NCBI GenBank assembly: GCA_027315385.1
Contig: DAHUYD010000067.1
Coordinates: 1 to 62,057, forward strand
Direction: 5' to 3'
DNA length: 62,057 bases
Source of the DNA: Acidobacterium sp.
GTDB taxonomy: Bacteria > Acidobacteriota > Terriglobia > Terriglobales > Acidobacteriaceae
Both the position numbers and the translations under genes were made by a program. The notes beneath the pieces were generated by a model. The model did not search any database. It was not told where the DNA came from and saw only the letters and a list, made by a program, of their open reading frames with translations. This document shows, piece by piece, positions 1,762 to 39,663 of the stretch (positions within the stretch are counted from its first letter, which is position 1; each line of letters starts with the position of its first letter).

Positions 1762-1854
1762 TCATCGATTCGACGATCAGGAGGCCAGCGTCAGGAGCCG
1801 GCAATCATGACTGCCATGACGCAGATTTTTCTATCTCCTTTTACAGGTCTCGCA

Positions 1855-1860
1855 TATACT
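1855..1860 (+). promoter_or_regulatory. Candidate -10 element (TATACT) for the S53 protease gene
   Basis: TATACT lies 34 bases before ATG 1894 in an otherwise GC-rich region. No good -35 hexamer is seen at 17 bp. If real, transcription starts near 1867, which excludes the longest possible start at 1807 and supports 1885/1894. Confidence 0.35.
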
Positions 1861-1893
1861 GGCTCCCAATCCCAAATGCCAGGAATGCAACCC

Positions 1894-4800
1894 ATGAAAT
1901 TGCGCAGCTCGTTTTGTCTCCTGTTGGCGGTGATGGCTCTCTCCCTCCGTCTTCCCCTGACGGCGCAGACGTCCAGCGCGCCCAGCCGAATTGCTGGACC
2001 CATCGACGAATCGAGTCTGGTAACGCTGCGGGGCAACGTGGCGCCGTTCGTGGCGCCTCGGTTCGATCGCGGGCCGGCGCCGGTTTCTACGCCCACGGGG
2101 CGCGTGTTCCTCCTGCTCCAGCGCGGCGCGGCGCAGCAGGAAACGCTGAAGGAGTATCTCTCCGATGTGCAGAATCCCTCTTCGCCGAGCTTTCACAAGT
2201 GGTTGACCCCGGCCCAGTACGGGGCGCGCTTCGGTGTCTCGGACACGGACTTGACGGCTGTGGAATCGTGGCTGCAGGGGCATGGATTCAAGATCGAGGG
2301 AGTACCGGCCTCGCGAAACGTAATCGAGTTCTCCGGCAGCTTCGGGCAGATCGAGAGCGCCTTTCATACCTCCATGCACCTGTTCTCGGTGAACGGCAGG
2401 AATGTCTTTGCCAATGTGGTGGATCCGCAGATTCCCGCGGCGCTGGCCCCCGTTGTTGCGGGAATAGGCCCGCTGAACAACTTCCGCCCGTTGCCGCCGT
2501 TGAAAATGGGCCCGCAGGGCCAGTACGACGCCACGACCCACAGTATCCAGCCGGCATTGACGTTGTCTTCCGGCGGTACGCCCTATCTGTACATCGATCC
2601 GGCCGACGCGGCCACCATCTATGACACGCCGAACTCGGCGCTGAATGCCAATTACAGCAGCGGCACCAGTTATGACGGAAGCGGAGTGAACATCGGCATC
2701 GCGGGCGTCTCTGACCTGACGATGAATGACGTTCAAAACTACCGCACGGGCTTCCTGGGCGAGACCACGAGCTCTGTGAATTTGCCCACGGTGGTGGTGG
2801 ACGGGAACGATCCGGGGCTGGTGAGCGGGTGGGATCTGGAGGCCCTGCTGGATAACGAAGTTGCGGGCGGCCTGGCCCCGAAGGCGAAGATATTCTTCTA
2901 TACATCGGCGGATACGGATCTCGCCTCGGGCATGTTCAACGCGATTTTCCGCGCACTGGACGACAACGCCATCAGCATTCTGAGCCTGAGCGTGGAGGCC
3001 TGCGAATCCGGGCTGGGCACCTCAGGCAACGCGATCATTCAGGAAGGTTCCGAACAGGCGGCGGCGCAGGGAATCACGGTGGTGGTGGCCGCGGGCGATA
3101 ACGGCTCAGCCGGCTGCGACAATTTCGATACGGCCGCCTCGGCAACGGGCGGCTTCGCGGTCAACGGCTACGCATCGTCACCTTATGTGGTCGCGGTGGG
3201 CGGGACGGATTTCGACGGTCTGCCGGCGGCGTTTGCGACGTATGTGAACACAACGAGCGGAACCGCGCCTTACTATCGAACGGCGCTGAAGTACATCCCC
3301 GAGAATCCCTGGAACGATTCGACGTCGGTGAATACGACGTACTCGGCGAATGTGGCGAACGCCGCCAGCGGAAGCACAAACATCGTTGCCGGGAGTGGCG
3401 GCCAGAGCACCGTGTATTCGAAGCCGCCGTTCCAGGGGGCCTTCACGCCGAACGACAACACGCGCGATCTGCCGGACGTGGCGCTGTTCGCGGGCGCCGG
3501 CGGCTACCAGGCTTCGTGGGTTCTCTGCTCGGACCCCACCACCGACGGTTCCACCCAGAATTACACAGAGTGCCAGAATACGAACGGGACGTTCGCGAAC
3601 GGGACCTATTTCGAGGGCGTGGGCGGGACTTCGGCGGCGGCGCCGGCGTTTGCGGGCATCATGGCGCTGTTGGCGGAGGCGCACGGCTCGTCGAGCGACA
3701 ACTACCGGCTGGGTCAGGTCGACACGACGCTGTACCAGCTGGTCATCCACCAGTATTCGACGGTCTTCCACGACATCACGATCGGCGACAATGCGGTGTA
3801 CTGCGCCACGGGTTCGCCGAATTGCGGGTCGAACAATTTCATGATGGGGTACAACGCCGGAAACGCCTACGACATGGCTTCGGGGCTGGGCAGTGTGGAC
3901 GCCAGCGCGCTGGTGAACAACTGGACCAGCGTGTCGCTGGGGCCCACTTCGACGACTCTCCAGCTGAACGGGTCGACCGCGTCGTATGCGGGCGTGCACG
4001 GCGCCAACGTAACCTTCAACGTCGGGGTAACTCCCACGACGGCGGGGGGCTTCGCGGCCATTGTGGATTCGGCCAACTATAACTCCGGGGTGCCGGTGCT
4101 GGGCCCTCTGAACAACGGACAGATTCCCGTCGCAATCAGCAGTGGGGCCGGGACGGTTACGTATAACGGCCTCCCGGGCGGGCAATACACGGTGTATGCG
4201 CGCTACGGCGGCGATTACACCGACGCGGCAAGCTCGTCGACGGCCATCAACGTGAATATCTCGGCCGAACCCAGCACGACCACCCTCACGGTGAATGGCT
4301 ACGATCCGCAGACCAGCGCTCCGCTTTCCGGCACGAGTTTCCCTTACGGAAGCGTGATTGTGAACGACGCGCAAATTACCGGCACCGGAGAAGGGGCGAA
4401 TACCCAGGGAGTCGCCACCGGAACGGTTTCGTTCCTGAACGGCACCACCGTGCTGGGTCAGGCGTCGGTGAGCAGCAGCGACGAGGCATCGTATCCGACG
4501 CTGAGCTCGGCGTACATGGCGTTTGCGCCCGGCTCCTACTCGATCACGGCGAAGTATCCGGGCGACGCGAGTTTCGAGGCCAGCACCAGCAACGTGGCCC
4601 CATTCACGGTGACACAGGCTTCCACCAGCGTGACGGCCGGGGCGAATCCCGCGACGGTGACCGCCGGCGGATCCACCACGATCACCGTAACGGTGTCGAC
4701 GCCCCTGAACGCGGGGGTGGCCCCCACAGGAACGGTCGCGCTGAAGCTGGGGAGCACGACCCTGGCCACCATCAGCAATCTCGCGGTGAGCTATCCGAAG

Positions 4801-5841
4801 ACGGGTTCGACCGTGTATGACGTGCTGACAGGGACCGGAACTGTGCAGGCGAGCCAACTGGCCGCCGGCAGCAACACGATTGAGGCCGATTACAGCGGCG
4901 ACACGAACTACGCGTCGAATTCGGCAACCGTGACGGTCACCGCGCCCACCTCGACTCCGGCGATCAGCATGACAAACAGCGGGAACATCGCGGTGAACGC
5001 CGGTGCGACGAGTGGGAACACGTCCACCATCACGGTGACACCGGCGGGCGGATTTACGGGCGCGGTCAACCTGAGTTGCGGAGTGACAACGAGCCTGAGC
5101 AATCCCACCAGCCCGGCAACCTGCTCATTGCCGGCGTCGGTAACGATCTCCGGTACGACGGCGGCCACGGCGGCGCTGACCGTCGCCACGACCTCGACAA
5201 CAAGTCCTGGAACCTACTCTGTGGCTGTAACCGGGACGGATGCGGCGACGGGTACCGTGACGTCGAACACGACCGTGACGGTGACGGTAAGCGCCTCGGC
5301 GAATCCGGCAATTGCTCTGACAAACAGCGGGAACATCACGGTGACGCCCGGAGCGACAAGCGGGAACACGTCGACCATTACGGTAACGCCTTCGGGTGGG
5401 TTCACGGGAGCGGTGAATCTGAGCTGCGCCGTGACGACGAGCATCACGAATCCGTTCGACGCCCCCACGTGCTCGGTGCCAGCGTCGGTGACGATCTCCG
5501 GTACGACCGCAGCGACGGCAACACTGACGGTGACGACGACGGCGGCGACCAGCGGCGCTCTGGCGAAGCCGCTCGACCGGTTCTTCCTGGGCGGCGGCGC
5601 GACGCTCGCGATGCTCTTCCTCTTCGGGATGCCGGGACGGCGGAGGGCCGGGCGCGGCATGTTTGCGCTCGTGGCCATCCTGCTTGTGGGCGGCGCCATC
5701 GGTTGTGGCGGCAAAAGCGGCACGGGCACCTCCGGCAACAAGGGCACGACCGCTGGGGCCTACACGGTGACCGTTACGGGCAAGGATGCGGCCACGGGGC
5801 AGATTACGTCCTCGACCCCTGTGACCCTGACGGTGAACTAG
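1894..5841 (+). CDS. Secreted S53 (sedolisin/kumamolisin) peptidase with Ig-like repeats and nested membrane anchor
   Basis: A 1315-residue pre-pro-protease. The signal peptide (MKLRSSFCLLLAVMALSLRL...) is followed by an activation prodomain (about 50-225, with the FxKWLTPAQYGARFG region). The catalytic domain (about 230-690) has all sedolisin motifs: Glu316 and Asp320 in WDLEALLDNE, the oxyanion Asp402 in AAGDNGSAGC, and nucleophile Ser580 in GGTSAAAP. It should cleave proteins at acidic pH outside the cytoplasm. Then come Ig-like (Big_3-type) domains and two near-identical ~116-residue repeats starting at 4960 and 5308. The second repeat is interrupted by a hydrophobic, Arg-rich, Gly/Cys insert (about 5551-5754) before its last strands resume. 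ATG 1894 is preferred because the signal peptide starts there; ATG 1885 is possible. Confidence 0.93.
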   Translation: MKLRSSFCLLLAVMALSLRLPLTAQTSSAPSRIAGPIDESSLVTLRGNVAPFVAPRFDRGPAPVSTPTGRVFLLLQRGAAQQETLKEYLSDVQNPSSPSFHKWLTPAQYGARFGVSDTDLTAVESWLQGHGFKIEGVPASRNVIEFSGSFGQIESAFHTSMHLFSVNGRNVFANVVDPQIPAALAPVVAGIGPLNNFRPLPPLKMGPQGQYDATTHSIQPALTLSSGGTPYLYIDPADAATIYDTPNSALNANYSSGTSYDGSGVNIGIAGVSDLTMNDVQNYRTGFLGETTSSVNLPTVVVDGNDPGLVSGWDLEALLDNEVAGGLAPKAKIFFYTSADTDLASGMFNAIFRALDDNAISILSLSVEACESGLGTSGNAIIQEGSEQAAAQGITVVVAAGDNGSAGCDNFDTAASATGGFAVNGYASSPYVVAVGGTDFDGLPAAFATYVNTTSGTAPYYRTALKYIPENPWNDSTSVNTTYSANVANAASGSTNIVAGSGGQSTVYSKPPFQGAFTPNDNTRDLPDVALFAGAGGYQASWVLCSDPTTDGSTQNYTECQNTNGTFANGTYFEGVGGTSAAAPAFAGIMALLAEAHGSSSDNYRLGQVDTTLYQLVIHQYSTVFHDITIGDNAVYCATGSPNCGSNNFMMGYNAGNAYDMASGLGSVDASALVNNWTSVSLGPTSTTLQLNGSTASYAGVHGANVTFNVGVTPTTAGGFAAIVDSANYNSGVPVLGPLNNGQIPVAISSGAGTVTYNGLPGGQYTVYARYGGDYTDAASSSTAINVNISAEPSTTTLTVNGYDPQTSAPLSGTSFPYGSVIVNDAQITGTGEGANTQGVATGTVSFLNGTTVLGQASVSSSDEASYPTLSSAYMAFAPGSYSITAKYPGDASFEASTSNVAPFTVTQASTSVTAGANPATVTAGGSTTITVTVSTPLNAGVAPTGTVALKLGSTTLATISNLAVSYPKTGSTVYDVLTGTGTVQASQLAAGSNTIEADYSGDTNYASNSATVTVTAPTSTPAISMTNSGNIAVNAGATSGNTSTITVTPAGGFTGAVNLSCGVTTSLSNPTSPATCSLPASVTISGTTAATAALTVATTSTTSPGTYSVAVTGTDAATGTVTSNTTVTVTVSASANPAIALTNSGNITVTPGATSGNTSTITVTPSGGFTGAVNLSCAVTTSITNPFDAPTCSVPASVTISGTTAATATLTVTTTAATSGALAKPLDRFFLGGGATLAMLFLFGMPGRRRAGRGMFALVAILLVGGAIGCGGKSGTGTSGNKGTTAGAYTVTVTGKDAATGQITSSTPVTLTVN
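4960..5541 (+). repeat. Two tandem Ig-like repeats (348-base period) inside the S53 protease gene
   Basis: Copies begin at 4960 and 5308 and share long runs at protein level (TNSGNI, GATSGNTSTITVTP, GGFTGAVNLSC, PASVTISGTTAATA). Each copy has a Cys in NLSC and another in TCS, probably a disulfide. The high similarity suggests recent internal duplication. Confidence 0.8.
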
Positions 5842-15923: not shown

Positions 15924-16688
15924 TCATGGGGCGACGGGGCGGGCCCCTTCGCCAGCGGCCGGCAGGTCCTGAGCCGCGTCCTGGCGCAGCGTGAGGACAG
16001 GGACATCGGCAGTGCGCATCTTTCTCACATAGACCAGTTGCAGAACCCGCCTCGCCACCTCATCTTTGGCCTGCTTCAGAGGCATGGGAGGGATGACGGT
16101 CATTCTTCCCAGAAATTCGGCGAGGCGCAGGTAGGCGTTGCGGTTCTCGATGAGGAAGGGCAACGGGTACTCGGGCTTGCGCTTGTGGGCTTCCTCGGGG
16201 TCGGCGTCGAGGACGAGGGCCAACTGCGGGCGGGGCACCAGGCGCGCGACGGCCCGCGAGAAGAGGCGGGCGGGGAGATTGCGCAGATCGAGATTGGCCA
16301 GCTCATCGTAGATGTAGCGGTCGAAGACGACGACGTCGACGCCGGAAAGCAGGGCGCGGCGGGCGACCGAGCGCAGAGAAAGGGCGTCGAGGGTGTAGAG
16401 GACGAGGCGCACCAGCGTCATCAGGGGCGAGCGCACGTTTTTGTCGCGGCGCTCGATGGGCCTCTCGGGACTGCCGACACCCTGGTCGCCGCCAAAGATG
16501 CGGTGGCCGGCCCCCTCGCGGGCGGACTTGAGGCACGCGGCGTCGTCCCAGAAGGTGAGCAGGCGAAAGGCGAGGCCTTGCTGCTCGAGCTGGCGGCAAA
16601 CGTTGTCGATCTGGGTGGTCTTTCCGGCGCCATCTACGCCGGAAAAGCTGATGAGCAGCGTGGAGCGATGGTTGCGGCTGCGAGTCAT
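15924..16688 (-). CDS. P-loop kinase, thymidylate-kinase-like
   Basis: The 254-residue protein has a Walker A loop (SFSGVDGAGKTTQ, about 15-27), the diagnostic 'x-G-x-D-G-a-G-K-t-T' of the Tmk family, and VVVFDRYIYDELANLDL (DR-Y motif) near residues 120-135. It is longer than Tmk (about 210), with an insert after the P-loop (DQGVGSPERPIERRDKN) and a divergent, Pro-rich C-terminus. It is unlikely to be the housekeeping dTMP kinase and may phosphorylate a nucleotide, glycan or lipid intermediate. It is the last gene of a run with the 151-residue protein and the STAS protein (gaps of 33 and 41 bases). Confidence 0.75.
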   Translation of the reverse strand: MTRSRNHRSTLLISFSGVDGAGKTTQIDNVCRQLEQQGLAFRLLTFWDDAACLKSAREGAGHRIFGGDQGVGSPERPIERRDKNVRSPLMTLVRLVLYTLDALSLRSVARRALLSGVDVVVFDRYIYDELANLDLRNLPARLFSRAVARLVPRPQLALVLDADPEEAHKRKPEYPLPFLIENRNAYLRLAEFLGRMTVIPPMPLKQAKDEVARRVLQLVYVRKMRTADVPVLTLRQDAAQDLPAAGEGARPVAP

Positions 16689-16721: not shown

Positions 16722-17177
16722 CTAGTTGGGGCGCCGCGGGCTGCCTATGGTGGCGGCGGCCACGGTGCCGAGCGCAATCGCGCCGCCCAGAATGAGTCCC
16801 CAGCGCAGGGCGAGCACGCGAATGCGGCGCTGTTTCGCGGGCGCGATGGCTGCTCCGGCAGGACGCGACGCGGCTACGCCAACAGGTTTGATGAGCGGCG
16901 CCGCGGCGGTACCGACGGGCTGCGAACTGGACGACTGGCCGGCATCGGCCTGGCGGGTTTGCAGCGACGGAGCGGATGTGGTCTGAGTCTGCTTCTGGTT
17001 TTGTGTCCGGGTTTGATTTTCGCTTTGGGGAACAGCCTGCGCGGGTGCGCCAGGCTGCGGGGCGTCGGGCAGGCGGGGAGTGGCGGCTGCGCTGTACTGC
17101 ACCACGAGCACAAAAGCCAGGGGACAGGCGATCAGCCGCGCTGTGTACCGCCTGCACCCCCTTATCAGGACGTTCAT
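16722..17177 (-). CDS. Hypothetical Pro/Gln-rich membrane protein
   Basis: The 151-residue protein has an N-terminal hydrophobic segment (about 13-33, a signal peptide or anchor), a low-complexity periplasmic linker rich in Pro, Gln, Thr and Ser (QTRTQNQKQTQTTSAPSLQT), and a C-terminal membrane helix (about 122-145: WGLILGGAIALGTVAAATIG) after a basic patch (KQRRIRVLALR). This is an envelope-spanning topology with no recognisable domain. It sits between the STAS and kinase-like genes. Confidence 0.65.
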   Translation of the reverse strand: MNVLIRGCRRYTARLIACPLAFVLVVQYSAAATPRLPDAPQPGAPAQAVPQSENQTRTQNQKQTQTTSAPSLQTRQADAGQSSSSQPVGTAAAPLIKPVGVAASRPAGAAIAPAKQRRIRVLALRWGLILGGAIALGTVAAATIGSPRRPN

Positions 17178-17218: not shown

Positions 17219-17614
17219 TCAGGCCGCGTTTTCCGCGGCGACTTCGAGAGCCTCGAGATCGAGACCCGGCGGCATCGCCATCGGTCGTTGCTGGAAGCTG
17301 TGAACCGCTTCCGCGACGGTTGGATAAACCTCAAAGAGACGCCGGAGCCCGGCGAGTTGCGGCGCGGTCCGGGTTTCCGCGGGCAGAGCTGCAAGCCGCA
17401 CGTCTCCGTTGCGCTTCATGGCCTCTTCCAGACAGGAAAACAGCAGATGCATGGTTGCCCTGCTCACGCGCCGTACGCGGGAGCAATCGAGCACGAGCCG
17501 AGGGCGTTCCGTTTCCACGTATTCCTGCAGGTTGCTCAAAAAGATGCGTTCTTCTGACGCAGTCACATCGTCGGGTACCTCATGCACTGTGACCGCACGC
17601 ATAGTAATCAACAT
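17219..17614 (-). CDS. STAS-domain protein (anti-sigma factor antagonist-like)
   Basis: A 131-residue single-domain protein. The STAS fold is seen as VTVHEVPDDVTASEERIFLSNLQEYV, then PRLVLDCSRVRRVSRATMHLL (the conserved 'P-x-x-v-l-D-c-S-x-v-x-x-v-s' with the Ser/Thr phosphorylation loop), then MKRNGDVRLAALP. Such proteins bind anti-sigma factors or act as small phospho-switches. ATG 17614 follows an AAGGG site; the upstream in-frame start at 17659 is less likely. It lies 112 bases downstream of flippase A, so it could couple a signalling switch to glycan export. Confidence 0.8.
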   Translation of the reverse strand: MLITMRAVTVHEVPDDVTASEERIFLSNLQEYVETERPRLVLDCSRVRRVSRATMHLLFSCLEEAMKRNGDVRLAALPAETRTAPQLAGLRRLFEVYPTVAEAVHSFQQRPMAMPPGLDLEALEVAAENAA

Positions 17615-17726
17615 TGTCTGGATCCCTTTCCCTGGAGCAAACGGCTTCAAATGTACCACCTTGCTAATAGCACTCCCAAAACGTCAGGCAATCAGGCTTC
17701 CAAAGTCGGGCTGGAGCCGGGAGTAC

Positions 17727-19700
17727 TCACGAAATCTGGCCGGATCGTTCAAAGAGCCGGTCGAGCTCGGCCTCCGGATGGTAAGTAAGATGCCGAACAC
17801 GGTTCTTTCCGTAGCGGCTGAGTGTGACTAAATTTGTGCGGTACCAGCAGCAATGGTCCATGGCGGGAGACAACCCGCAGAGGACGCGCAGCCTGGGAAT
17901 GCAGCCTTCGAGCAGAGCGGCGGCGAGACGGTGGTTGCCGTCGATGATGGTCAGGGGGTCGTACTCGTTGCGGCCGATGAGGACAACGGATCCGGGAAGG
18001 GTTCCGGGCTGGGTCAGACGGTGGCGAAAGGCCTCAATCTTGCGCAGGAAGGGGTCCGTGGCGTGCTGGCCGAGTCGCCGGGCAAGCTTTTCCGCCACGT
18101 CGCTGAGGAGGAGATTGCCCTGGGCAATTTTGCGCCACTGCGCGCGCGGGAATACAAGAACGCGGCCCAGACCGGTTTCGCGAATTTGTACCTCGTACCA
18201 TTCCGTATTCGCAGGGATCTCTTTCCACAGGGCGAGGTGGCGGACGAAGAGCAGAGCGCGGCGTTTGGCGCACTCCGAGGGGCTCTCAAGGTTTGGCTTC
18301 TCCACGATGCTGCGCATCGATTCGTGGTAATCGAGATAGGCGTCGTGATCGAAATCGGAACGCAGGAACTCGGCGATGACCTCGTCCTCCGAAACACGGC
18401 GGATGACGCGGATGGCGGGCGATGCGGAGCGGCCCGAGGTCCGGGCCTCGCGAAACATGCTGATGAGGAATGGGATGCCGACGACGAGCAGGAGCAGGAC
18501 CATGAGCAGCAACTGCACGGCCAGGACTTCGCGCAGCGAGGAATGGAAGCGGCAGATGCCGCCAATGACGGCTGCGGCGAATGCGAGCTGCACCCAGGCG
18601 GTGTTGGCGATGCGGTAGGACATCTCGTACGCGATGATGGTGATGCTGAGCGAGAAAACCATGGTGACAACAGCTTTGAGCGAGAGCAGGTAGGGCATGC
18701 CGTAGGGTCCGGCGATGTGGAAGCCGGCACCGAAGAACGTCGTCCAGATCGAGGGGGGCGCTATACGGAGGCCGATCGCCATTGCCGAGCCGATGCCGAG
18801 CACAATCAGCAGGGAGGTGGCGATGAGGGAGAGATTCCTGCGCTCCTCGTGCGGCGCGCCGGCAACGACGGGGAACATGCCGTTCATGACAGCGGAGGAG
18901 AAGGAGAAGATGACGCGGCCGACAAGAGCGATGGCGGCGTAGAGGCCAGCGGTGGCGGGCGCAAAGAAGTGCTTCACGAGGACGATATCGCTGTTGTTGA
19001 TGAGGACCTGGCCGGAGAAGAACACCAGGGCCTGCAGTAGTTCGCGCGCGGCAAGCACGCCCCCGAGTGGGTTTGGGCCGGAAGCGGACAGGGCGGGAGG
19101 GATAACGGCCCAGGCGATGGCTTCGGCGGCGGCATTGGCGCCGATTACGCCGGTGACGCCGAAGCCGAGAAAGATCGCGACCAGCGAACCGATGAGACGG
19201 GCGGCGGCTTCCAGGACGAGATTGGAAGCGAGCTTGCGGAATCCGCAGGCGCCCAGGATATAGCCGCGCCGGCAGCCCAGAGGCACGTAGAAAGCGGCGC
19301 CCACGGCAAGGAGAACGACGAGGAGCGGACTGGGAAGGCGGAGGTAAACCGCGACAGAATTGCGAAAAATGACGAGCAGGAAGGCGACAAGGACACCGCA
19401 GCTCCAGGCGGCCCGATGGAGCAGCAGGTAGGCGGCGCCGCGGGTCTCGCCGGAGCCGGGCTGCGCGACCATCTTGGCGGAGACAATCTGAAAGGAGAGG
19501 GTGACGGCGGAGGCGATCGTGAGCATGGTGTACACGACCGCTACGTGACCGTAACCGCTGGCGCCGAGGAAACGGGCGACGGCGATGTTGTAGCCGAGAT
19601 TGACGATGGTGGTGAGGCTCGAGCCGGACAGCAGCACCGCGCTTCCGGAGATGATCCGGTTGCGCAGCTTTCTGGAATTCTGCATGGATGGATTCGACAC
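17727..19700 (-). CDS. Wzx-type polysaccharide flippase fused to a ParB/sulfiredoxin-like 'DGNHR' domain (paralogue A)
   Basis: Residues about 10-425 form a MATE/Wzx-type transporter with about 12 membrane helices, starting RIISGSAVLLSGSSLTTIVN and containing the family pattern ARFLGASGYGHVAVVYT. Such proteins flip lipid-linked glycans across the inner membrane. After the last helix comes a cytosolic domain of about 230 residues: DEVIAEFLRSDFDHDAYLDY, RRALLFVRHLALWKEIPANT, VLVFPRAQWRKIAQGNLL, then ITIIDGNHR-type sequence with DGNHRLAAALLEG at 587-599 and CCWYRT shortly after. DGNHR in a strand-turn-helix is the nucleotide-binding signature of the ParB/sulfiredoxin/SerK superfamily. A typical Wzx (about 420-500 residues) has no such tail. 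The homologue at 36240-38276 has the same architecture. Confidence 0.8.
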   Translation of the reverse strand: MSNPSMQNSRKLRNRIISGSAVLLSGSSLTTIVNLGYNIAVARFLGASGYGHVAVVYTMLTIASAVTLSFQIVSAKMVAQPGSGETRGAAYLLLHRAAWSCGVLVAFLLVIFRNSVAVYLRLPSPLLVVLLAVGAAFYVPLGCRRGYILGACGFRKLASNLVLEAAARLIGSLVAIFLGFGVTGVIGANAAAEAIAWAVIPPALSASGPNPLGGVLAARELLQALVFFSGQVLINNSDIVLVKHFFAPATAGLYAAIALVGRVIFSFSSAVMNGMFPVVAGAPHEERRNLSLIATSLLIVLGIGSAMAIGLRIAPPSIWTTFFGAGFHIAGPYGMPYLLSLKAVVTMVFSLSITIIAYEMSYRIANTAWVQLAFAAAVIGGICRFHSSLREVLAVQLLLMVLLLLVVGIPFLISMFREARTSGRSASPAIRVIRRVSEDEVIAEFLRSDFDHDAYLDYHESMRSIVEKPNLESPSECAKRRALLFVRHLALWKEIPANTEWYEVQIRETGLGRVLVFPRAQWRKIAQGNLLLSDVAEKLARRLGQHATDPFLRKIEAFRHRLTQPGTLPGSVVLIGRNEYDPLTIIDGNHRLAAALLEGCIPRLRVLCGLSPAMDHCCWYRTNLVTLSRYGKNRVRHLTYHPEAELDRLFERSGQIS

Positions 19701-19761: not shown

Positions 19762-19912
19762 AACCGCCGGAATTGGCTCAGAGACGCGGGACGAAATTAC
19801 AGGTCAGTGCCGCGGCTATGGTGAGTCGGATGCATGCTTTACGCGCATGGCTGCTTACCGGGCCCGCGCGGCGACAACCCGGGGGAAACGAGGCGCTTCT
19901 AACAGGATTCCT

Positions 19913-20893
19913 ATGGCTGGACGTGTGGGTGCTGCATCGCTGTTTCTTTTTTTCCTTCTCCATGGATGCCTGGGCTCGCCGCCGCCACCGCGGCTGCAGT
20001 TTACGGCCACAGGAGAATCTCCGGAGTTGCTGGCCCTGTACGAGGGCTGGTTTGGAGAGCCGAATCATTGGAACGCGGGATATTCGTCCCACGATCCGCA
20101 CACGATTCGCGATCAGATCCGAAGCGCGAAAAGGATGGGAATTTCCGCATTCGTGGTCGACTGGTACGGCGATCGCGACCCATTCGTGGACCAGACGTAC
20201 GCGCTCGTTGAGAAGCAGGCGGCGAAGAATAAGTTCCACGTGGCCGCGATGTATGACGAGTCGGATGCGACGGATGGGGCGACGGATGCGGCGATCGCGG
20301 ATCTGACGATGTTCCACGACAGCTACCTGGCCACAAAAGACGGACGCAACGCATACCTGACGTACGAGGGGCGGCCGGTGATCTTCGTCTGGCCGCACGG
20401 TGACGCGGTGGACTGGGACAAGGTGCGCGGCGCGGCTAACAAGTGGAATCCGGCGCCGTGGCTTATCGACGAGAATCTGCCAGGCAAGTACGCGAAGGAC
20501 TTCGATGGATATTATCCCTGGGTGCAACCGGGGCCCAAAGGCTGGGCGGCGGACGGCAGTGACTGGGGACAGGGATATCTGAGCAGCTTCTACCAGACGA
20601 TGGCGCAGAAATTTCCCGGCAAAATCATCGTGGGCGGAGCGTGGGCGCAGTTCAACGACAGCAAGGCTTCCTGGGGATTGAACCGGCATATCGCGGCGCG
20701 ATGCGGGCAGACGTTCCGGCAGACGCTGAATCTGTGGAAACAATATGTGCCTGCGGGGCAGGTGATCCCGTTCGTGATGGTGGAGACGTGGAACGACTGG
20801 GAAGAGGGCACGGCGATCGAGAAGGGATTGCCGACGTGCGGAGGGCAGCCCGCGCCCACTTCTGTGGTGAGTTTGGAGACCCCAGGGAAGTAG
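19913..20893 (+). CDS. Lipoprotein glycoside hydrolase, GH99/GH71-like (endo-alpha-mannanase clan)
   Basis: The 326-residue product starts at ATG 19913 (AGGA upstream). Its short signal ends in a lipobox LLHGC, so it should be lipid-anchored. The catalytic part has GH99-like features: LLALYEGWFGEPNHWNAGYS, then MGISAFVVDWYGD, FDGYYPWVQPG, and the C-terminal signature VETWNDWEEGTAIE. These enzymes cleave internal alpha-mannosidic or related linkages. Within an exopolysaccharide locus it could trim or release the polymer in the periplasm, as PelA, AlgL or PslG do in other systems. The linkage cannot be predicted. Confidence 0.8.
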   Translation: MAGRVGAASLFLFFLLHGCLGSPPPPRLQFTATGESPELLALYEGWFGEPNHWNAGYSSHDPHTIRDQIRSAKRMGISAFVVDWYGDRDPFVDQTYALVEKQAAKNKFHVAAMYDESDATDGATDAAIADLTMFHDSYLATKDGRNAYLTYEGRPVIFVWPHGDAVDWDKVRGAANKWNPAPWLIDENLPGKYAKDFDGYYPWVQPGPKGWAADGSDWGQGYLSSFYQTMAQKFPGKIIVGGAWAQFNDSKASWGLNRHIAARCGQTFRQTLNLWKQYVPAGQVIPFVMVETWNDWEEGTAIEKGLPTCGGQPAPTSVVSLETPGK

Positions 20894-25255: not shown

Positions 25256-25415
25256 GGTTCCTCACGTAGAAAACGAGTTTGATTCCGAAAGTACCGGCGG
25301 CGGTTGCTTTTTACGTGGCCGTGCCGCGGCGGTTTCCTAACATGAACGCCGATCAGCAGCCAACGCCAGAGGGATTCTCCGAATCCAAAGCCAGGTAGTT
25401 GCGACCCGCACGTTG

Positions 25416-28400
25416 GTGACCTGTTTGACATCAAGACGAAAGTGCCTCACATTCGCAGGCGCAGTTGCGCTGCTTGTTCTCACCTGCCCTGCGCATCCAC
25501 AGACCTACCAGGTCGGCGCCGGCGGCCGGGTGAAATCGAAAACGGCGAACGGCCAGACGCAGACGCAACTGGGCTGGGGATCGAATATCCAGAACGCGCG
25601 GCTGGCGCGCGCGGCAGAACTCGCGCTGCAGCGCGGCGACTATCCGACCGCGGAAAACTATGCGCAGCGCGCCGCGCGGTCGGCTCCGGACGATCCGCAG
25701 CTCTGGTTTCTGCTGGGCTACGTGGCGCGGCTGAACCACAATTACGCGCTGTCGGCGACGGCCTTCCAGCACGGACTGCGACTCAAGCCATTGTCCGTGC
25801 AGGGAATCTCCGGCCTGGCGCAGACGTACAGCGACATGGGTCGGGTGGCCGAGGCCGAGAAGCTGTTGAAGCAGGCGCTCGCCGTGAATCCGCGGCAGGT
25901 CGACGATCTGCTCGTTCTTGGGAATCTCTCTTTGCAGGCCGGCGATTATCCAGATGCAGTTACGTACCTGAGGCGCGCAGAGCAGGTAAAGCCGAATGCG
26001 AGGTCGGAGTTGCTGCTGGCGATCTGCTACGAGCGCCAGAAGGAGATGGACATGGCCAGCCGCTACCTCCACCTGGCGCAGAGGCGTGCGCCGAACAATC
26101 CGGACGTAGAGCGGTCGCTGGCGGGCTACTACCGGGAGACGGGCCATTACGGGAAGGCGATTGACGAGCTGAAGGCGATTCGCAACCCGCCGCCGGACGT
26201 GGTAGGCGAGCTGGCGTACACGTATCAACTGGACGGCAAGCCGCAGGATGCCGCGCGTTTATACTCGCGGGCAGCCGATGCGCTGCCGCGCAATCTGGGT
26301 ATGCAGCTATCGGCGGCGCAGGCGGAACTCACGGCGCAGGCGCCGGACCGCTCGCATCGGTTTCTGGCGCGGGCTGCCGGAATCAATCCCAACTACTACC
26401 GGCTGCACCAGATCCGCGGGGAGATTGCGGAGCTGGAAGAGCACAATGATGCGGCGGTGAAGGAATACCAGGCGGCGATTGCCAGCCTTCCACCAACCCC
26501 GGCGGAGGGGCCTCTGTATGGCATTCAGCTGCACATGGATCTACAGATGCTGTACCGCCAGCTGAACCAGGACAATGCGGCACAGCAGCAGTTGCAGATT
26601 GCGCAACAGCAGATCAAAAGCGTTCAGGTGCAGCCTGGCGAGCGGCCCGCGTTCCTGCGGCTGCGTGCGCAGATTGAAATGAATACGGGCCAGCTGCAGT
26701 CGGCACTGAATGACATGCAGGCGGCGCTGGCGCTGACGCCGAACGACCCCAACAGCCTGCAGATCGATGGCGACGTGCTGATGAAGATGGGCCGGACGCA
26801 GGATGCCATTGCCGTCTACAGGAAAGTGCTGGGGATTGATCCGCGTAGCCGCCTGGCCCTTACGTCGCTGGGTTACGCCGCGCGCACCGAGCATAACGAC
26901 CGCGAGGCGGAGAAGTACTTCAACCGTCTGGCCGCCGATTATCCAGGCCTTTACATTCCCTACCTCGCGCTGGGCGATCTGTATGCGGACCGCGGGCTTT
27001 ACAAGAAGGCAGAATTGTATTATGACAAGGCCTACACTCGGGACCCGAAGAACGCGCTGATTGTGGCCGACGCGATGAATGCGGCCATCGAAGAGCATAA
27101 TTTGCCGCTGGCGGCCACCTGGCTGAACCGCGTACTGCCGGGAATGTACAACAGTCCGCAGATTCTGGCGCAGAAGGAACGGTATTTCCGGTTCCAGGGG
27201 AACTATCGCGAGTCGGCGGAAAATGGTGAGAAGGCGATACAGTCGCTCCCGCGGGATCGCGATGTCGTGGTGTATCTCGGGTATGACCTGCTGAACCTGG
27301 GCAAATACGACGAACTGCTGGCCCTGACGAAAAAATACGACAGCATCCTGACGCAGGAGCCGGACATTCCGCTGCTGGAAGGGTACGTCTACAAGGAAAA
27401 GGGCGATCGGAAACGGGCGGTGCAGGCGTTCACGGAGGCAATCCAGCGCGGCCCGGCGGTGGAGACGGCGTACGTCAACCGCGGGTTCGTGGAAAACGAT
27501 CTGCGCGAGCCGGCGTCGGCACAAAAGGATTTCACCAGGGCGATTCATCTGGAGCCGAAGGATGGGCAGGCGCACCTGGGGCTGGCCTACTCCGACTTGG
27601 CGCTGAGCGATTCGCCCGGGGCGCTGAAACAGTCGAAGCTGGCGCAGGCGTATCTGGGGGATTCGGAGGCGGTGCACATTATTCGGGCCACGGCCTACGG
27701 GCGCGAAGGATTGCTGTCAAACGCGATTGTGGAGTATCGGGCGGCGCTGCGGTTTGCGCCCCGTGACGGCACGCTGTACGCGGAGATGGGCAACATCTAC
27801 TTTTCGCAGCGGCGGTTCCACCACGCGATTGCCGAGCTGAACACGGCAGAGAAGTACCTGCCGAACAACGCGCAGATCTACGCGATGCTGGCCCGGTCGT
27901 ACGCCGGAGTGCCGGATCGGCGGCAGGCGATGGCGAATGTGGAGTCGGCCGAGAAGCTGGCGGACCACCCGCCCAGCGAGGGCGCGACGTGGGTTCCAAG
28001 CGACATTTATGTGGACACCGGCGAGGCGCTCAGCGCGCTGGGAGACCGTAAGGCGGCTATGCAGCGATTTGCGCGGGCGCTGGTGGCGCCCAGGGCGAAT
28101 CGCGTGGGCGTGCGCCTGGCCATTGCGCAGCTGATGGCACAGCAGGGGAATGACGCGGGAGCGGAGCGGCAGATCGCGCTGGCGCAGATGGAAGGGGAAG
28201 CCGGTGTGACCGAGCCGCCGACCGGTCCGCAGTATCTGCAGGCGGCGGGCATTCTGCAGCAGATGCATGAGTATCGGCTCTCGCAGACCTATCTGGAGCG
28301 CGCGCTGAAGGCGGGGGCGTCGGATCTGGATGTGCGCGTGGATCTGGCCAACAGCTACCTGGCGCTGGGAGAGACGCAGCGCGCCGCCGGAGAACTGGCG

Positions 28401-29678
28401 GCGGTGAGCCAGGCGGACGTGGCGAAGTCGGATTACTCGTATCTGCTGGCCCAGGCCAATGTGTATCAGCAGGAGCACCAGGGGACGGCGGCCCTGTCTG
28501 AGTTTGCGCAGGCGGCCAGCGCGGCCGGGGAAGACCAGACCGCCGAACAGAATCTGATGCAGGTGGGAGCGAATGAGGGGTACCGCATCGACAAACATAT
28601 CAGCGTTCTTTCCAACCTGCTGCAGCAGCCGATTTATGAAGACAGCACGGTGTACGTACTGGATTCAGAGACGTTCGGAAATCCTCCGGCGATTTACGGG
28701 AGCACAGTCGCGACGTCAAAACTGCCGCTGCCGCGCTACACGATCGATACGGAGTGGACAGACGCATTCCATCTGCATCTGAACCACTGGCCGACAACGG
28801 GCGGTTTCTTCCAGCTCCGCAATGCGCGTGGCATGATCTCGATGCCGGCGATCGGCATAGTGAGGCGCAGCACCTGGGACTACAACTTCAATTATGGCGT
28901 GGCCCCCAATTTCCATCTGGGAGCCACGATGCTCTCGTTCAACGCAGGGTTTATGGGAACGATTCGCCGGGACACGATTTCGCCGCGGGAGATGGACCAG
29001 AACATCGGGCGATTCTTCGCCTACATGAGTACCGGGTCGTTCTGGGACGCGGTGTCGGTGAACGCCTCGGTCGTGCACGATTTCGGGCCGTTTACGGAGA
29101 TTCCGCTGCACGAGTCGACGCTGGCGGGCACCGTGGATTTTCGCGTGGGCGCGCCGTGGGCGAAGACGGCTCTGGTCACGGGCTGGGGCTCGAATGACCA
29201 GCTTTTCACCTCAGGTTCGCTCGGGAACACGGAAAACTATTTCACCACGTCCTACATCGGACTTACGCATCGGTTTTCCTCGCATCTGAATATCGAGGGG
29301 ATCGCGGAAGACTGGCGCGCATGGCGCGTGGTGCCTTTCGTGGTCACCCCGGGGAGCTTTATCGTGCACTCCGGCATTGCCCAGGCGATACGACCCGCCG
29401 GAACCGTCAACTACTCGCCGGCGCGGAACTGGCAGATTCAGTTCTCGACCGCTTACGAAAATACCCGCAGTTTTCACGTATACGACATGACTCAAAACGG
29501 ATTCTCCCTCTCATACACGCGGCCCCTCGGGCGCAGCATGAACGAAGAATTGGGGACGGTTCATGTACGGTATCCGATTCGGTTTTCGGCCGGCGTGCAG
29601 GAAGAGACGTTTCCGAACTACACCGGGATCGGCAGGAACCAGGAATTTCGACCTTACGTAAGCATCAACCTGTTCTGA
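25416..29678 (+). CDS. Large TPR protein with C-terminal outer-membrane beta-barrel (PelB/BcsC-like export protein)
   Basis: About 1420 residues. A signal-like N-terminus (FAGAVALLVLTCPAHPQ) is followed by about 25 tetratricopeptide units (roughly 55-1050; for example ARLARAAELALQRGDYPTAE, LKQALAVNPRQVDDLLVLGN, IAVYRKVLGIDPRSRLALT). A linker leads to a beta-barrel (about 1065-1420) of alternating strands ending in EFRPYVSINLF, with the terminal Phe recognised by the Bam machinery. PelB, BcsC, PgaA and AlgK/E use the same plan to conduct polysaccharide through the periplasm and outer membrane. The start is GTG 25416 or TTG 25413; no strong ribosome binding site was seen. A GT4 gene follows after 9 bases. 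Confidence 0.83.
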   Translation: MTCLTSRRKCLTFAGAVALLVLTCPAHPQTYQVGAGGRVKSKTANGQTQTQLGWGSNIQNARLARAAELALQRGDYPTAENYAQRAARSAPDDPQLWFLLGYVARLNHNYALSATAFQHGLRLKPLSVQGISGLAQTYSDMGRVAEAEKLLKQALAVNPRQVDDLLVLGNLSLQAGDYPDAVTYLRRAEQVKPNARSELLLAICYERQKEMDMASRYLHLAQRRAPNNPDVERSLAGYYRETGHYGKAIDELKAIRNPPPDVVGELAYTYQLDGKPQDAARLYSRAADALPRNLGMQLSAAQAELTAQAPDRSHRFLARAAGINPNYYRLHQIRGEIAELEEHNDAAVKEYQAAIASLPPTPAEGPLYGIQLHMDLQMLYRQLNQDNAAQQQLQIAQQQIKSVQVQPGERPAFLRLRAQIEMNTGQLQSALNDMQAALALTPNDPNSLQIDGDVLMKMGRTQDAIAVYRKVLGIDPRSRLALTSLGYAARTEHNDREAEKYFNRLAADYPGLYIPYLALGDLYADRGLYKKAELYYDKAYTRDPKNALIVADAMNAAIEEHNLPLAATWLNRVLPGMYNSPQILAQKERYFRFQGNYRESAENGEKAIQSLPRDRDVVVYLGYDLLNLGKYDELLALTKKYDSILTQEPDIPLLEGYVYKEKGDRKRAVQAFTEAIQRGPAVETAYVNRGFVENDLREPASAQKDFTRAIHLEPKDGQAHLGLAYSDLALSDSPGALKQSKLAQAYLGDSEAVHIIRATAYGREGLLSNAIVEYRAALRFAPRDGTLYAEMGNIYFSQRRFHHAIAELNTAEKYLPNNAQIYAMLARSYAGVPDRRQAMANVESAEKLADHPPSEGATWVPSDIYVDTGEALSALGDRKAAMQRFARALVAPRANRVGVRLAIAQLMAQQGNDAGAERQIALAQMEGEAGVTEPPTGPQYLQAAGILQQMHEYRLSQTYLERALKAGASDLDVRVDLANSYLALGETQRAAGELAAVSQADVAKSDYSYLLAQANVYQQEHQGTAALSEFAQAASAAGEDQTAEQNLMQVGANEGYRIDKHISVLSNLLQQPIYEDSTVYVLDSETFGNPPAIYGSTVATSKLPLPRYTIDTEWTDAFHLHLNHWPTTGGFFQLRNARGMISMPAIGIVRRSTWDYNFNYGVAPNFHLGATMLSFNAGFMGTIRRDTISPREMDQNIGRFFAYMSTGSFWDAVSVNASVVHDFGPFTEIPLHESTLAGTVDFRVGAPWAKTALVTGWGSNDQLFTSGSLGNTENYFTTSYIGLTHRFSSHLNIEGIAEDWRAWRVVPFVVTPGSFIVHSGIAQAIRPAGTVNYSPARNWQIQFSTAYENTRSFHVYDMTQNGFSLSYTRPLGRSMNEELGTVHVRYPIRFSAGVQEETFPNYTGIGRNQEFRPYVSINLF

Positions 29679-29687
29679 GGCGGGCCA

Positions 29688-31094
29688 ATGAAGATTTGTC
29701 TAGTGGCGGCGTTTCCACCGAGCCGGCGACAGCTGAACGAGTATTCCCTGAACATTGCGCGAGAGATCCAGAGGTATCCGGATGTCGAACTGACTATCCT
29801 GGCCGACGAACTGGGGAAGTATGACTTCACGGGTGAAGCGGGCGGGAAGGGCGAACCGGCCCGGGAGTTGCCGGATTTTAACGTCATCCGCTGCTGGAGG
29901 TTCGGCAGCATGGCGACGCCTGCGCGTCTGCTGGGCACCATCCGCCGGCTACAGCCCGACGTGGTGTGGTTCAACCTGGTCTTCTCCAGCTTCGCGGGGC
30001 CGGAGAGCCCCTTCGCTGCTTTCGCCGGCTTGTCCGCGCCCGCGCTCACTCGAGCGGCGGGGTTCTACACGCACATCACGCTGCACCACATCATCGAGCA
30101 CGTGGACTTTGGCGACGCGGGTGTAAAGCGCGAGAAGCTGTATCGTCTGGGAACGAATGTGGCCACGCGCGCGCTGCTGCAGGCGCACTCGGTCTCCGTG
30201 CTGCTCTCAGCGTACCGGCGTACGCTGATCAAGAAATATTCCGCTGAGAACGTGATGGTGGGCACACATGGCACGTTTGCAACGGTTTGCACGCCGCCCG
30301 ATTTCAGGATCCGGAACAATCCGGATCGCCGCATCCTCGCCTTCGGCCACTGGGGGACGTACAAGCGGCTGGAAACGCTGATGGAGGCGTTTCCTCTGGT
30401 GCTGAAGCGAGTACCCGAAGCGCGCCTGATTGTGGCTGGCGGCAACCACCACACGCGCCCCGGTTATTGGGAATCGGTGCGCGTCGCGCAGCCCGAACAT
30501 CTGCCTATCGAATTTCTGGGCTATGTGCACGACAACGACGTCCCGCAGATGTTCCGCACCAGTTCGATTCTTGTGATGCCCTACGATTCTTCGACGGGAT
30601 CGAGCGGGCCGGCGCATCAGGCGTGCGAATTCGGCCTGCCGATTGTGTGCGCCGACATTCCCGATTTTCACTGCATGGCCAAGGACGACGACATGGCCAT
30701 CAGTTTTTACAAGACCGGGAATGCCGAGGATTTGGCGGATAAGCTGGTTGGCATTCTTCAGTCGCCGGAGCTTGAGCGGCAGATGTCGCAGCACAACTAT
30801 CAGGCCGGCATTCAGATGACGATGGCGAGCGTGGTGCGCAATTATCTGCGCTGGTTCGAACTGCACCGCTGCAAGCGCGAAATCGCAGACAAGAGCCTCT
30901 GGTCTGGGGGCCGGCGGTTGCCCGGCGGGCTATCGGAGCGGGAATCCGCTTCGCTGGTTCAGATGGACGAGACAAACTCCCGTGTGGCGCCGGAGCTGAT
31001 GGAAGGCGCTCTGCGGCCCGAGGCAGAATCGATGCCGCTGCTGGGATCGCGCGCAAGTCTTTCCAACAACGATGAATACGCTGACGCAAGTTAG
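29688..31094 (+). CDS. Glycosyltransferase family 4 (GT-B fold)
   Basis: The 468-residue protein begins MKICLVAAFPPSRRQLNEYS, the GT-B N-terminal donor-site start. The C-terminal Rossmann domain has RRILAFGHWGTYKRLETLME (the GT4 'f-G-r-l-x-x-x-K-x-x-x-x-l' region), IEFLGYVHDNDVPQMFRTS, and SSGPAHQACEFGLPIVCAD, equivalent to the E-x7-E motif region that binds the NDP-sugar, here with one Glu clearly visible. A charged tail of about 60 residues (from SLWSGGRR) is beyond the fold. Placed 9 bases after the TPR/barrel gene, as in pelB-pelF type pairs, it is a candidate for chain synthesis in the cytoplasm. Confidence 0.85.
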   Translation: MKICLVAAFPPSRRQLNEYSLNIAREIQRYPDVELTILADELGKYDFTGEAGGKGEPARELPDFNVIRCWRFGSMATPARLLGTIRRLQPDVVWFNLVFSSFAGPESPFAAFAGLSAPALTRAAGFYTHITLHHIIEHVDFGDAGVKREKLYRLGTNVATRALLQAHSVSVLLSAYRRTLIKKYSAENVMVGTHGTFATVCTPPDFRIRNNPDRRILAFGHWGTYKRLETLMEAFPLVLKRVPEARLIVAGGNHHTRPGYWESVRVAQPEHLPIEFLGYVHDNDVPQMFRTSSILVMPYDSSTGSSGPAHQACEFGLPIVCADIPDFHCMAKDDDMAISFYKTGNAEDLADKLVGILQSPELERQMSQHNYQAGIQMTMASVVRNYLRWFELHRCKREIADKSLWSGGRRLPGGLSERESASLVQMDETNSRVAPELMEGALRPEAESMPLLGSRASLSNNDEYADAS

Positions 31095-31194
31095 CGGCCA
31101 ATTCTCTCGGGACAACTCGCCTTCCGAGGCAGTCGTCCAATACCGGCACGTAGTCTGCCCGGATCCATCCGTGGCTGCTGGAAGGAAGCTTACA

Positions 31195-33675
31195 TTGCTG
31201 ACACCGCCCGTGCGTACCTTCGCCCGCACTCTCCCGGCCTCCCTGGTTGTTCTAGCCGCCTGCTGCCTGGTGTCCCAGACCGGCTGCGGCTGGCTGAGCG
31301 GAACAGGAGCAAAATCGCCGACCACGGTGCGCATTACTGCCGAACCAACTTCCATTCAGGCTGGCGCGTCCGCAACACTGACCGTGACGGCAGCAAATGC
31401 AACCACGGTGACGATTGCCGGCTCAGACGGCAGCAGTTATTCCCTACAGCCCGGCGGCGGGAGCCAGAGCGTAGCGCCGTCCGCGACGACGACGTATACG
31501 GCGACTGCAACCGGATCCAGCGGATCAGTCACCGCCCAGGCCACAGTCACGGTTCAGGCGCCGATTGCGCCACCCTCCGTAACGATTACGGCAAGTCCAA
31601 TGACCGTCAGTCCGGGAGGATCCTCGACACTAACCGTGACCGCCACCAATGCCACGTCGGTGGTCGTTGCGGGTTCGGACGGCACCAGTTATACGCTTGG
31701 GGCAACCGGGGGCACACAAACAGTAACTCCAGCAACGACGACCACGTATGTGGCAACGGCCGCGGGGCAGGGAGGAACGGCTACTCAGCAGCAGGCGACA
31801 GCTGACGTGACGGTCACCGTGACGGCAGGACCGCCGACGGTGACCATTGCAGCCAGCCCGACATCCGTGGCGTCGGGACATTCCGCGACGCTGACGGTGA
31901 CGGCGACCAATGCGACGGCAGTCACGGTGGCCGGGTCCGACGGCACGAATTACACGCTGCCGATCACGGGCGGAACGCAAACGGTAACGCCCTCCACGAC
32001 CACCACCTATACCGCGACGGCTACGGGAGCGGGACCCAATGCGACCGCGCAGGCTACGGTCGACGTTGTGGCCGGCGGCACGGAAAATTCCATCAGCCAC
32101 GTACTCTTCATGCTTCAGGAGAACCGCAGCTTCGACAGTTACTTCGGCATGCTGAACAACTATAAAAAGTCCAATGGGTGGGATGTGGGGACCGACGGCA
32201 ACACGTACCTGGTGGACGGCATTGACGACAAGCTGACCACGATCAGCAATCAGGATGACGAAGGCGACACTTTCCACCCTTTTAAGTTCACCAGTACCTG
32301 TATCGACGACATGTCTTCAGCCTGGCTGGAGAGCTACGGAGACGTGAATCGCTACGACTTCAGCACGGCGCGCAACATCAACATGGACGGTTTTGTTCAC
32401 ACTGCCGAGGGCTTCGCGAAGAGCTGCGCCGCATCGAAGAGCTGCTCGGGGAACTTCACCGATACCACGGGTGAACGCGCTATGGGGTATTACGATCAGG
32501 GCTTCCTGAACTACTACTACTACATGGCAGGCCAGTTTGCGCTGTCGGACCGCTGGTTTACCCCTGTTTCCAGCAAGACTGTGGATAACCGCATCGCCAC
32601 GATGACGGGCGGAACTACGCAGGGTCTTACCCGCGATCCAGGCAGCGACGATCATCTGCCGCAGCTGTCAATGAAGACGATCTTTCAGGAACTGGACAAG
32701 GCCGGAGTGTCGTGGAAGATCTACTACACCGATACCCAGGGCTACTGCCTGGGCGAGGACGAGTGCAACGGGGGCGGGGATGCCGCATTCCCGGCATCTG
32801 AGTTCGAGGACTTTACTTACTCAGTAAGGTATCTGTATATGAACAAGTCCGGCGCACCGTGCACAGCACCGACGCAGGCCTCCAGCGTGGTCGGGGACAA
32901 GAGCAACTCGTTCTGCATCGACCCCACGCATATAGCACCGTTGAGCGATGTGAAGTACGGGTATTTTGCCGACTTGAAAAACAACACACTCGCCAGCTTC
33001 TCTTATATCGAGCCTGGCTTCGGCCTGAACGATGAGCACCCCGGGTCGAACAACGACATCCTGAAAGGTCAGGCGGAGGTTGCCACTATCGTCAACGCGC
33101 TGATGGGCAGCACGGAGTGGGGCAGTTCAGTATTTTTCCTGGGATATGACGAAGCCGGCGGCCCGTACGATCACGTTCCACCGGTGCCCGGACACTCAAA
33201 CGACTTCACCGACGCGAACGTGGGAAGCACGCCGGTCGCGAACATTCCGGATATATCCACGATCGCGGTGAATCCGGATTCATATAACCCATGCCTGCCC
33301 CCGAACGGCACACCACAGCAAATGCCGGCCGGAGGGTACTGCGATCTGAGCCCGGGAGATCCAGGAACGCAGCCGACCGATGCCGCGGCCCAGCAGGGAT
33401 TTGCGGCGCAACTTGGCTTCCGCATTCCCAACCTGGTTATCTCGCCGTTTACCAACGCTCACTACGTTTCGCACATTCCGATGGATCACACCGCGGTGAT
33501 CAAGTTTGTAGAGAACCGCTTTATCGGTCCGAACGCCCATCTCACGAACCGGGATGCTGCTCAGCCCAATCTGCTGGACTTCTTCGATTTCTCGAGTCCG
33601 CCCTGGGCGACGCCACCCACTCCTCCGGCAGCGAATACGACTTCAAACTGCAACGCCCAGAACTTCGGTCAGTAA
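31195..33675 (+). CDS. Lipoprotein phosphoesterase (AcpA/phospholipase C family) with three Ig-like repeats
   Basis: I choose TTG 31195 because GGAAGGAAG lies 6 bases upstream and a lipoprotein signal then follows (VVLAACCLVSQTGC, lipobox S-Q-T-G-C). An ATG at 31072 in the same frame would overlap the GT4 gene and add 41 residues before the signal. After three ~83-residue Ig-like repeats, the phosphoesterase domain (PF04185) begins near residue 300: FMLQENRSFDSYFGML (metal ligands), DEAGGPYDHVPP, and MDHTAVIKFVENRF. Enzymes of this family hydrolyse phosphomonoesters or phospholipids at the surface. A strong terminator follows. It may be co-transcribed with the GT4 gene. Confidence 0.87.
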   Translation: MLTPPVRTFARTLPASLVVLAACCLVSQTGCGWLSGTGAKSPTTVRITAEPTSIQAGASATLTVTAANATTVTIAGSDGSSYSLQPGGGSQSVAPSATTTYTATATGSSGSVTAQATVTVQAPIAPPSVTITASPMTVSPGGSSTLTVTATNATSVVVAGSDGTSYTLGATGGTQTVTPATTTTYVATAAGQGGTATQQQATADVTVTVTAGPPTVTIAASPTSVASGHSATLTVTATNATAVTVAGSDGTNYTLPITGGTQTVTPSTTTTYTATATGAGPNATAQATVDVVAGGTENSISHVLFMLQENRSFDSYFGMLNNYKKSNGWDVGTDGNTYLVDGIDDKLTTISNQDDEGDTFHPFKFTSTCIDDMSSAWLESYGDVNRYDFSTARNINMDGFVHTAEGFAKSCAASKSCSGNFTDTTGERAMGYYDQGFLNYYYYMAGQFALSDRWFTPVSSKTVDNRIATMTGGTTQGLTRDPGSDDHLPQLSMKTIFQELDKAGVSWKIYYTDTQGYCLGEDECNGGGDAAFPASEFEDFTYSVRYLYMNKSGAPCTAPTQASSVVGDKSNSFCIDPTHIAPLSDVKYGYFADLKNNTLASFSYIEPGFGLNDEHPGSNNDILKGQAEVATIVNALMGSTEWGSSVFFLGYDEAGGPYDHVPPVPGHSNDFTDANVGSTPVANIPDISTIAVNPDSYNPCLPPNGTPQQMPAGGYCDLSPGDPGTQPTDAAAQQGFAAQLGFRIPNLVISPFTNAHYVSHIPMDHTAVIKFVENRFIGPNAHLTNRDAAQPNLLDFFDFSSPPWATPPTPPAANTTSNCNAQNFGQ
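31327..32079 (+). repeat. Three tandem Ig-like repeats in the phosphoesterase gene
   Basis: Copies begin at 31327, 31579 and 31840. Each has the pattern ITAxPxSVxxGxSATLTVTA, NAT-x-V-x-V-AGSDGTxYTL, and a TTTYTATAxG strand. They are probably a surface stalk lifting the catalytic domain. Copies 2 and 3 are the most alike. Confidence 0.8.
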
Positions 33676-38276: not shown

Positions 38277-38468
38277 TACTTCGGTCTCCGTAGCCCGGAA
38301 TAAATATCGAATGCACGCCTGGCCGGGCGGAGCGCGCAGTCGCATTTGGCTGAAAGAAAGCCGCAGGCGTCGCGGGTTTGAACCGGGGCGCAGAAAGAAA
38401 ACAATTAGCGTTCAGGGCCTTCAGTACAAATTGCACGGCCCATGACGTGCCAGGATAGTTGCGCGCAG

Positions 38469-39458: not shown

Positions 39459-39663
39459 GTTGGCGCTCCGGAGGTATGGAAAAGGGATGGCCCTGCTCAA
39501 CGAGCATTCATCGCATTGCAACAAGTTTGGATGCCGAAAATCGGCCACCCGTGGAGGAATATCTGCGAATAAACCGTCCCCCCGATGACGAGGCTGCGCT
39601 GGCAGCCTTGATCGAGCCGGATTTCCGGCGCGTTATGCGATGATGACGCCCCGGTTTGCGGCG

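Follow-up and report, generated by a model that had tools for sequence, protein, structure and literature searches.

In the 62,057-nucleotide stretch of Acidobacterium sp. DNA analysed here (the window), an open reading frame with a GTG start codon (17727-19700, minus strand) encodes a 657-residue protein, in which a transporter of MOP/Wzx fold is followed by a soluble tail of 228 residues. What might such a tail do on a transporter of this type? The initial annotation described the protein as a Wzx-type flippase with a soluble tail containing the motifs DGNHR (17928-17942) and CCWYRT, and both the coordinates and the motifs were found to be correct.

Transporter and tail

The two parts of the protein and a paralogue encoded in the same window are located as follows.

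18432-19700, minus strand: transporter part (MOP superfamily, MATE/Wzx-fold), residues 1-423, by structure alignment
17730-18413, minus strand: tail, residues 430-657, predicted to be cytosolic and of ParB/sulfiredoxin (Srx) fold, by model, structural neighbours and conservation
36240-38345, minus strand: paralogue, a second transporter-tail fusion of 701 residues, by genome search and Pfam

The transporter portion proper comprises approximately residues 9 to 422, and the soluble tail begins at about residue 430 and extends to residue 657. In the full-length model (mean pLDDT 84.7) the transporter part has a MOP fold of about 12 helices. It aligned with the MATE structure 6gwh with a Z score of 32.0 (aligned length about 390-410 residues) and with WzxE (9g9n) with a Z score of 31.6 over 391 residues. 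Given the even number of helices and the topology of WzxE, the tail probably lies on the cytosolic side of the membrane. A Pfam scan of the 17727-19700 protein gave no Polysacc_synt match; the paralogue scored 33.7 bits with this family (cut-off 28.2).

The paralogue has the same layout, and shares 54% identity over 647 residues with the 17727-19700 protein. The dN/dS values (0.12-0.13 for the transporter part, 0.16-0.24 for the tail) indicate purifying selection on both parts.

Fused and split forms

The transporter-tail protein had a match in 75 of the 150 genomes of the family. The tree contained 46 fused rows (two from the window and 44 others) and 22 split ones. In the 22 split genomes the tail gene directly follows the transporter gene, and all eight junctions read among these pairs showed the stop/start overlap ATGA. 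Fused and split forms lie on opposite sides of a single branch (support 99), so that a single fusion or fission event is enough to account for the whole set. The tree was midpoint-rooted, and the event could have run in either direction.

An assembly error or a chance read-through could in principle have joined two unrelated genes, and the existence of separate transporter and tail genes in 22 genomes might be taken to point that way. Against it, the fusion is shared by 46 tree rows including the paralogue in the window, and every locus kept from the scan of the genome contigs was fused (80/80). We regard the probability of such an artefact as negligible. The initial annotation had named an assembly error as an observation that would overturn its reading, and had proposed a search for the domain architecture; the second fused copy, the 44 further ones, the adjacency of the split pairs and the uniformly fused scanned loci settle this point in its favour. 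The transporter-tail layout is real and more than a chance arrangement.

Two genomes encode an extra tail without transporter, preceded by one hydrophobic segment (L071:8561-9583 and L072:8587-9564); both also carry the fused protein. The same fused gene, with the same synteny as in Acidobacteria, was found on a contig labelled as a Rhodanobacteraceae MAG (L114), by mis-binning or transfer. Culturable relatives with a locus of this kind include Terriglobus albidus and Acidipila rosea (L159, L092).

Fold of the tail

The tail model, built from an alignment of 56 tails, had a mean pLDDT of 92.5. When the structural matches were re-aligned, the best 15 rows were all sulfiredoxin, Noc, ParB, SbnI, SerK or the P. 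furiosus homologue of the latter. The Z scores to these proteins were modest (3.9-5.2), with unrelated folds reaching 3.8 at most, and the Foldseek E-values were above 1. Matches in a viral library were in most cases annotated as ParB/Srx.

At the sequence level, no significant family was identified when the tail was scanned against Pfam, NCBIfam and PHROG, the ParB-like PHROG matches being sub-threshold. Pfam ParB_N (PF02195) did not match the tail or 46 relatives scanned, up to an E-value of 1. The close tail family, used as a profile against the PDB, returned designed helical-repeat proteins and a single other chain, weakly matching and unrelated, and its profile, from which distant relatives were left out, matched ParB no better than controls. 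With the profile of the wider family, which includes stand-alone distant relatives, ParB_N ranked first among ten families compared (P 0.0069 versus 0.16-0.76 for nine neighbour families), and SerK was the top natural protein in the PDB search (E 0.29). Both of these alignments place GNHR on the P-motif.

Because the model and several individually weak structure and profile matches agree, the tail is likely to have the ParB/Srx fold. This is the fold that the initial annotation had proposed and had suggested checking against known structures; the model, the in-register motif alignment and the family-wide conservation described below bear the proposal out.

Stand-alone distant relatives of the tail, of about 195 residues, occur in Acidobacteriota and on Streptomycetaceae plasmids (L082:9222-9839; L208:1293-2336; L214:6004-6585). 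One of them sits amid cell-wall synthesis genes resembling murD, ftsW and murG; others are located elsewhere and on the plasmids. Phages queried with a stand-alone relative, and plasmids queried with the tail itself, gave no matches. A match in L043 was discarded, as it came from an antisense reading frame.

Conserved motifs of the tail

Three conserved segments of the tail were compared with the motifs of ParB/Srx-fold proteins.

17928-17942, minus strand: DGNHR, at the position of the GxxR P-motif, residues 587-591
17835-17852, minus strand: CCWYRT, conserved, residues 617-622, opposite VYTWYP in the SerK alignment
18123-18152, minus strand: FPRAQWRKIA, conserved in the tail alignment, residues 517-526

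In the model DGNHR is placed between a strand (residues 583-587) and a helix (residues 589-598), and GNHR aligns in register with GERR of ParB and GHHR of SerK. All 70 tails of the close family contain [DE]GNHR. At this site two stand-alone relatives have DGHIR and EGHCR instead, and in the wider tail family only the G and the R of GNHR are kept. FPRAQWRKIA recalls, by its position, the first motif of ParB (I..NP.QPR), an equivalence judged by eye; the counterpart of the base-contacting Box I of ParB was likewise matched by eye only. Two acidic residues of the tail, E438 and E494, are invariant.

In sulfiredoxin the catalytic cysteine lies in the sequence FGGCHR. This cysteine has no counterpart in the tails, where the segment is [DE]GNHR with Asn preceding His-Arg. 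In the comparison with SerK, the column aligned with the catalytic Glu30 of SerK is not conserved, although the alignment is weak (E 0.29).

Operon and neighbourhood

The gene of the transporter-tail protein is followed by three genes of the same operon, and further genes of the window belong to its recurrent neighbourhood.

17219-17659, minus strand: STAS-domain protein, next in the operon (Pfam STAS 1.1e-10; synteny)
16722-17177, minus strand: small protein (u151) with hydrophobic N-terminal and conserved hydrophobic C-terminal segment, kept in 83 compared loci
15924-16688, minus strand: P-loop kinase of dTMP-kinase type (Pfam Thymidylate_kin 9.2e-11)
25413-29678, plus strand: TPR protein with signal peptide, likely an outer-membrane export protein, linked in 51 loci
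29688-31094, plus strand: glycosyltransferase (group 1) of the same locus (domain match, synteny)
38469-39548, minus strand: glycosyltransferase family 2, beside the paralogue (domain match, synteny)
19847-20893, plus strand: GH99-like/WbsX-like protein, divergent neighbour, Pfam below cut-off, linked in 74 loci

Some of the loci counted here derive from the same genome. Fused genomes with the arrangement of the window have transporter-tail first, then STAS, small protein and kinase; the usual order in split genomes is STAS, transporter, tail, small hydrophobic-ended protein and P-loop kinase. The kinase has intact and conserved Walker A and DRY motifs, and scores under the cut-off of the dTMP kinase equivalog. 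It was found in 71 of the 150 genomes: 70 genomes have both the kinase and the transporter-tail protein, five have transporter-tail alone and one has the kinase alone. The two thus occur together in 70 of the 76 genomes with either (Fisher p 3e-35, uncorrected for phylogeny). In the kinase-only genome (G045, L216:8203-10081) genes for STAS, small protein and kinase are present, with no transporter-tail gene in the stretch read.

Glycosyltransferases, the TPR export protein and the GH99-like protein recur near transporter-tail genes. Since glycosyltransferases and the TPR export protein are encoded in its neighbourhood, the transporter probably acts on a polysaccharide, either a lipid-linked glycan or a glycan chain.

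Two other genes of the window encode a phosphoesterase of phospholipase C type, which belongs to the same locus and lies between both fused copies (31072-33675), and a Pro-kumamolisin-type protein with Big_3_5 domains (1807-5841).

Possible functions of the tail

We lean towards the view that the exporter handles a polysaccharide and that its tail is a module which binds NTP and serves control or assembly. The tail would bind nucleotide (ATP, CTP or GTP), and would thereby control the MOP/Wzx-fold exporter or the assembly of the exporter with cytosolic partners. The candidate partners, encoded beside it, are the STAS protein and the P-loop kinase resembling dTMP kinase. We infer both the NTP binding and the coupling of nucleotide state to transport; taken together, the locus suggests nucleotide control of surface polysaccharide export in soil Acidobacteria. 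A more specific version, about which we are tentative and rather doubtful, is a nucleotide-gated glycan flippase, in which NTP binding or hydrolysis would open or close the exporter, or assemble it with the STAS protein and the dTMP-kinase-like kinase. If true, this would be, to our knowledge, the first ParB-type switch on a membrane transporter. Switches of the ParB fold have been described in DNA segregation and in an increasing number of fusion proteins. Nucleotide binding by the tail would extend the role of this fold to the regulation of membrane transport, and would make the export of polysaccharide in a soil phylum of high abundance testable by way of one domain and its conserved partners.

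Could the tail instead be an enzyme? It would then be a kinase of SerK/SbnI type working on the inner side of the membrane, either ahead of export or while export proceeds, and its substrate would be a small molecule, a glycan, a lipid carrier or a partner protein. No natural protein scored better than SerK in the PDB profile search, the alignment spans both GHHR of SerK and the W-Y that comes after it, and the conserved CCWY together with the invariant E438 and E494 could serve catalysis. Moreover, two genomes have an extra, transporter-less tail with one hydrophobic segment, therefore the tail can act alone. What makes us consider such a kinase unlikely is that the tails show no conservation at the position matched to SerK Glu30 (weak as the alignment is), that no neighbouring gene indicates serine chemistry, and that the STAS protein has no conserved phosphoserine. 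For the same reason, the non-conserved phosphoserine position, we dropped the idea that the STAS partner is phosphorylated in the manner of SpoIIAA.

The tail could also be a nucleotide-free scaffold, which would have retained the fold and would give the transporter a docking site for the kinase-like protein and the STAS protein. The conserved operon, the co-occurrence of the kinase and the tethering or translational coupling of the tail to the transporter are all consistent with docking, and there is a precedent in mycobacterial MviN, whose pseudokinase domain recruits FhaA (PMC12599244). A scaffold, however, would not need GNHR, and this P-motif is present without exception in the close family; we consider such a scaffold unlikely, to the same degree as the kinase.

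Relation to known systems

Wzx/WzxE flippases share with the 17727-19700 protein the transporter fold over about 390 residues and a neighbourhood of glycosyltransferases, with the paralogue also scoring above the Polysacc_synt threshold of Pfam. The protein differs from them by the additional 228-residue tail of probable ParB/Srx fold, and no Wzy was identified. The tail in turn has in common with ParB, Noc, KorB and SerK/SbnI/sulfiredoxin the probable fold and the position of the GxxR P-motif. Unlike the ParB-CTPase proteins, it has no HTH or dimerization domain (Pfam scans of the protein and of 47 tails), is not matched by PF02195 and is membrane-tethered; from sulfiredoxin it is set apart by the lack of the catalytic Cys, and from SerK possibly by the non-conserved Glu30 position.

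According to the initial annotation known flippases end after helix 12 or 14. This was too strong: MviN of Mycobacterium tuberculosis has a C-terminal pseudokinase domain (PMC12599244), therefore flippases with regulatory tails are already known. In the mycobacterial protein (MurJ-type) a MOP transporter likewise carries a regulatory domain at its C-terminus, and this domain descends from nucleotide-binding proteins, but it has a protein-kinase fold, does not bind ATP and has its role in peptidoglycan synthesis (PMC12599244). The initial annotation also knew of no described flippase of this design. This holds for its ParB/Srx-fold part, as no transporter fusion of that fold was found in the literature searched, and not for regulatory-tailed flippases in general. 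A search for flippase, ParB and sulfiredoxin retrieved a single paper, which by its title and abstract concerns plasmid spread.

A 2025 survey of the ParB-CTPase fold was seeded with ParB and PF02195 (PMC12704722), and PF02195 does not match the transporter-linked tail. As presented in its main text, proteins of this fold bind CTP, ATP or GTP and are frequently fused to other domains, with a nucleotide specificity that is not predictable from sequence or AlphaFold3; that text does not mention a transporter fusion (PMC12704722).

None of the named members of the Pel, Bcs and Pga systems was matched above cut-off by the locus. The likeness to Pel, cellulose and PNAG export is one of analogy only: there, as here, the locus combines a glycosyltransferase with an export protein rich in TPRs.
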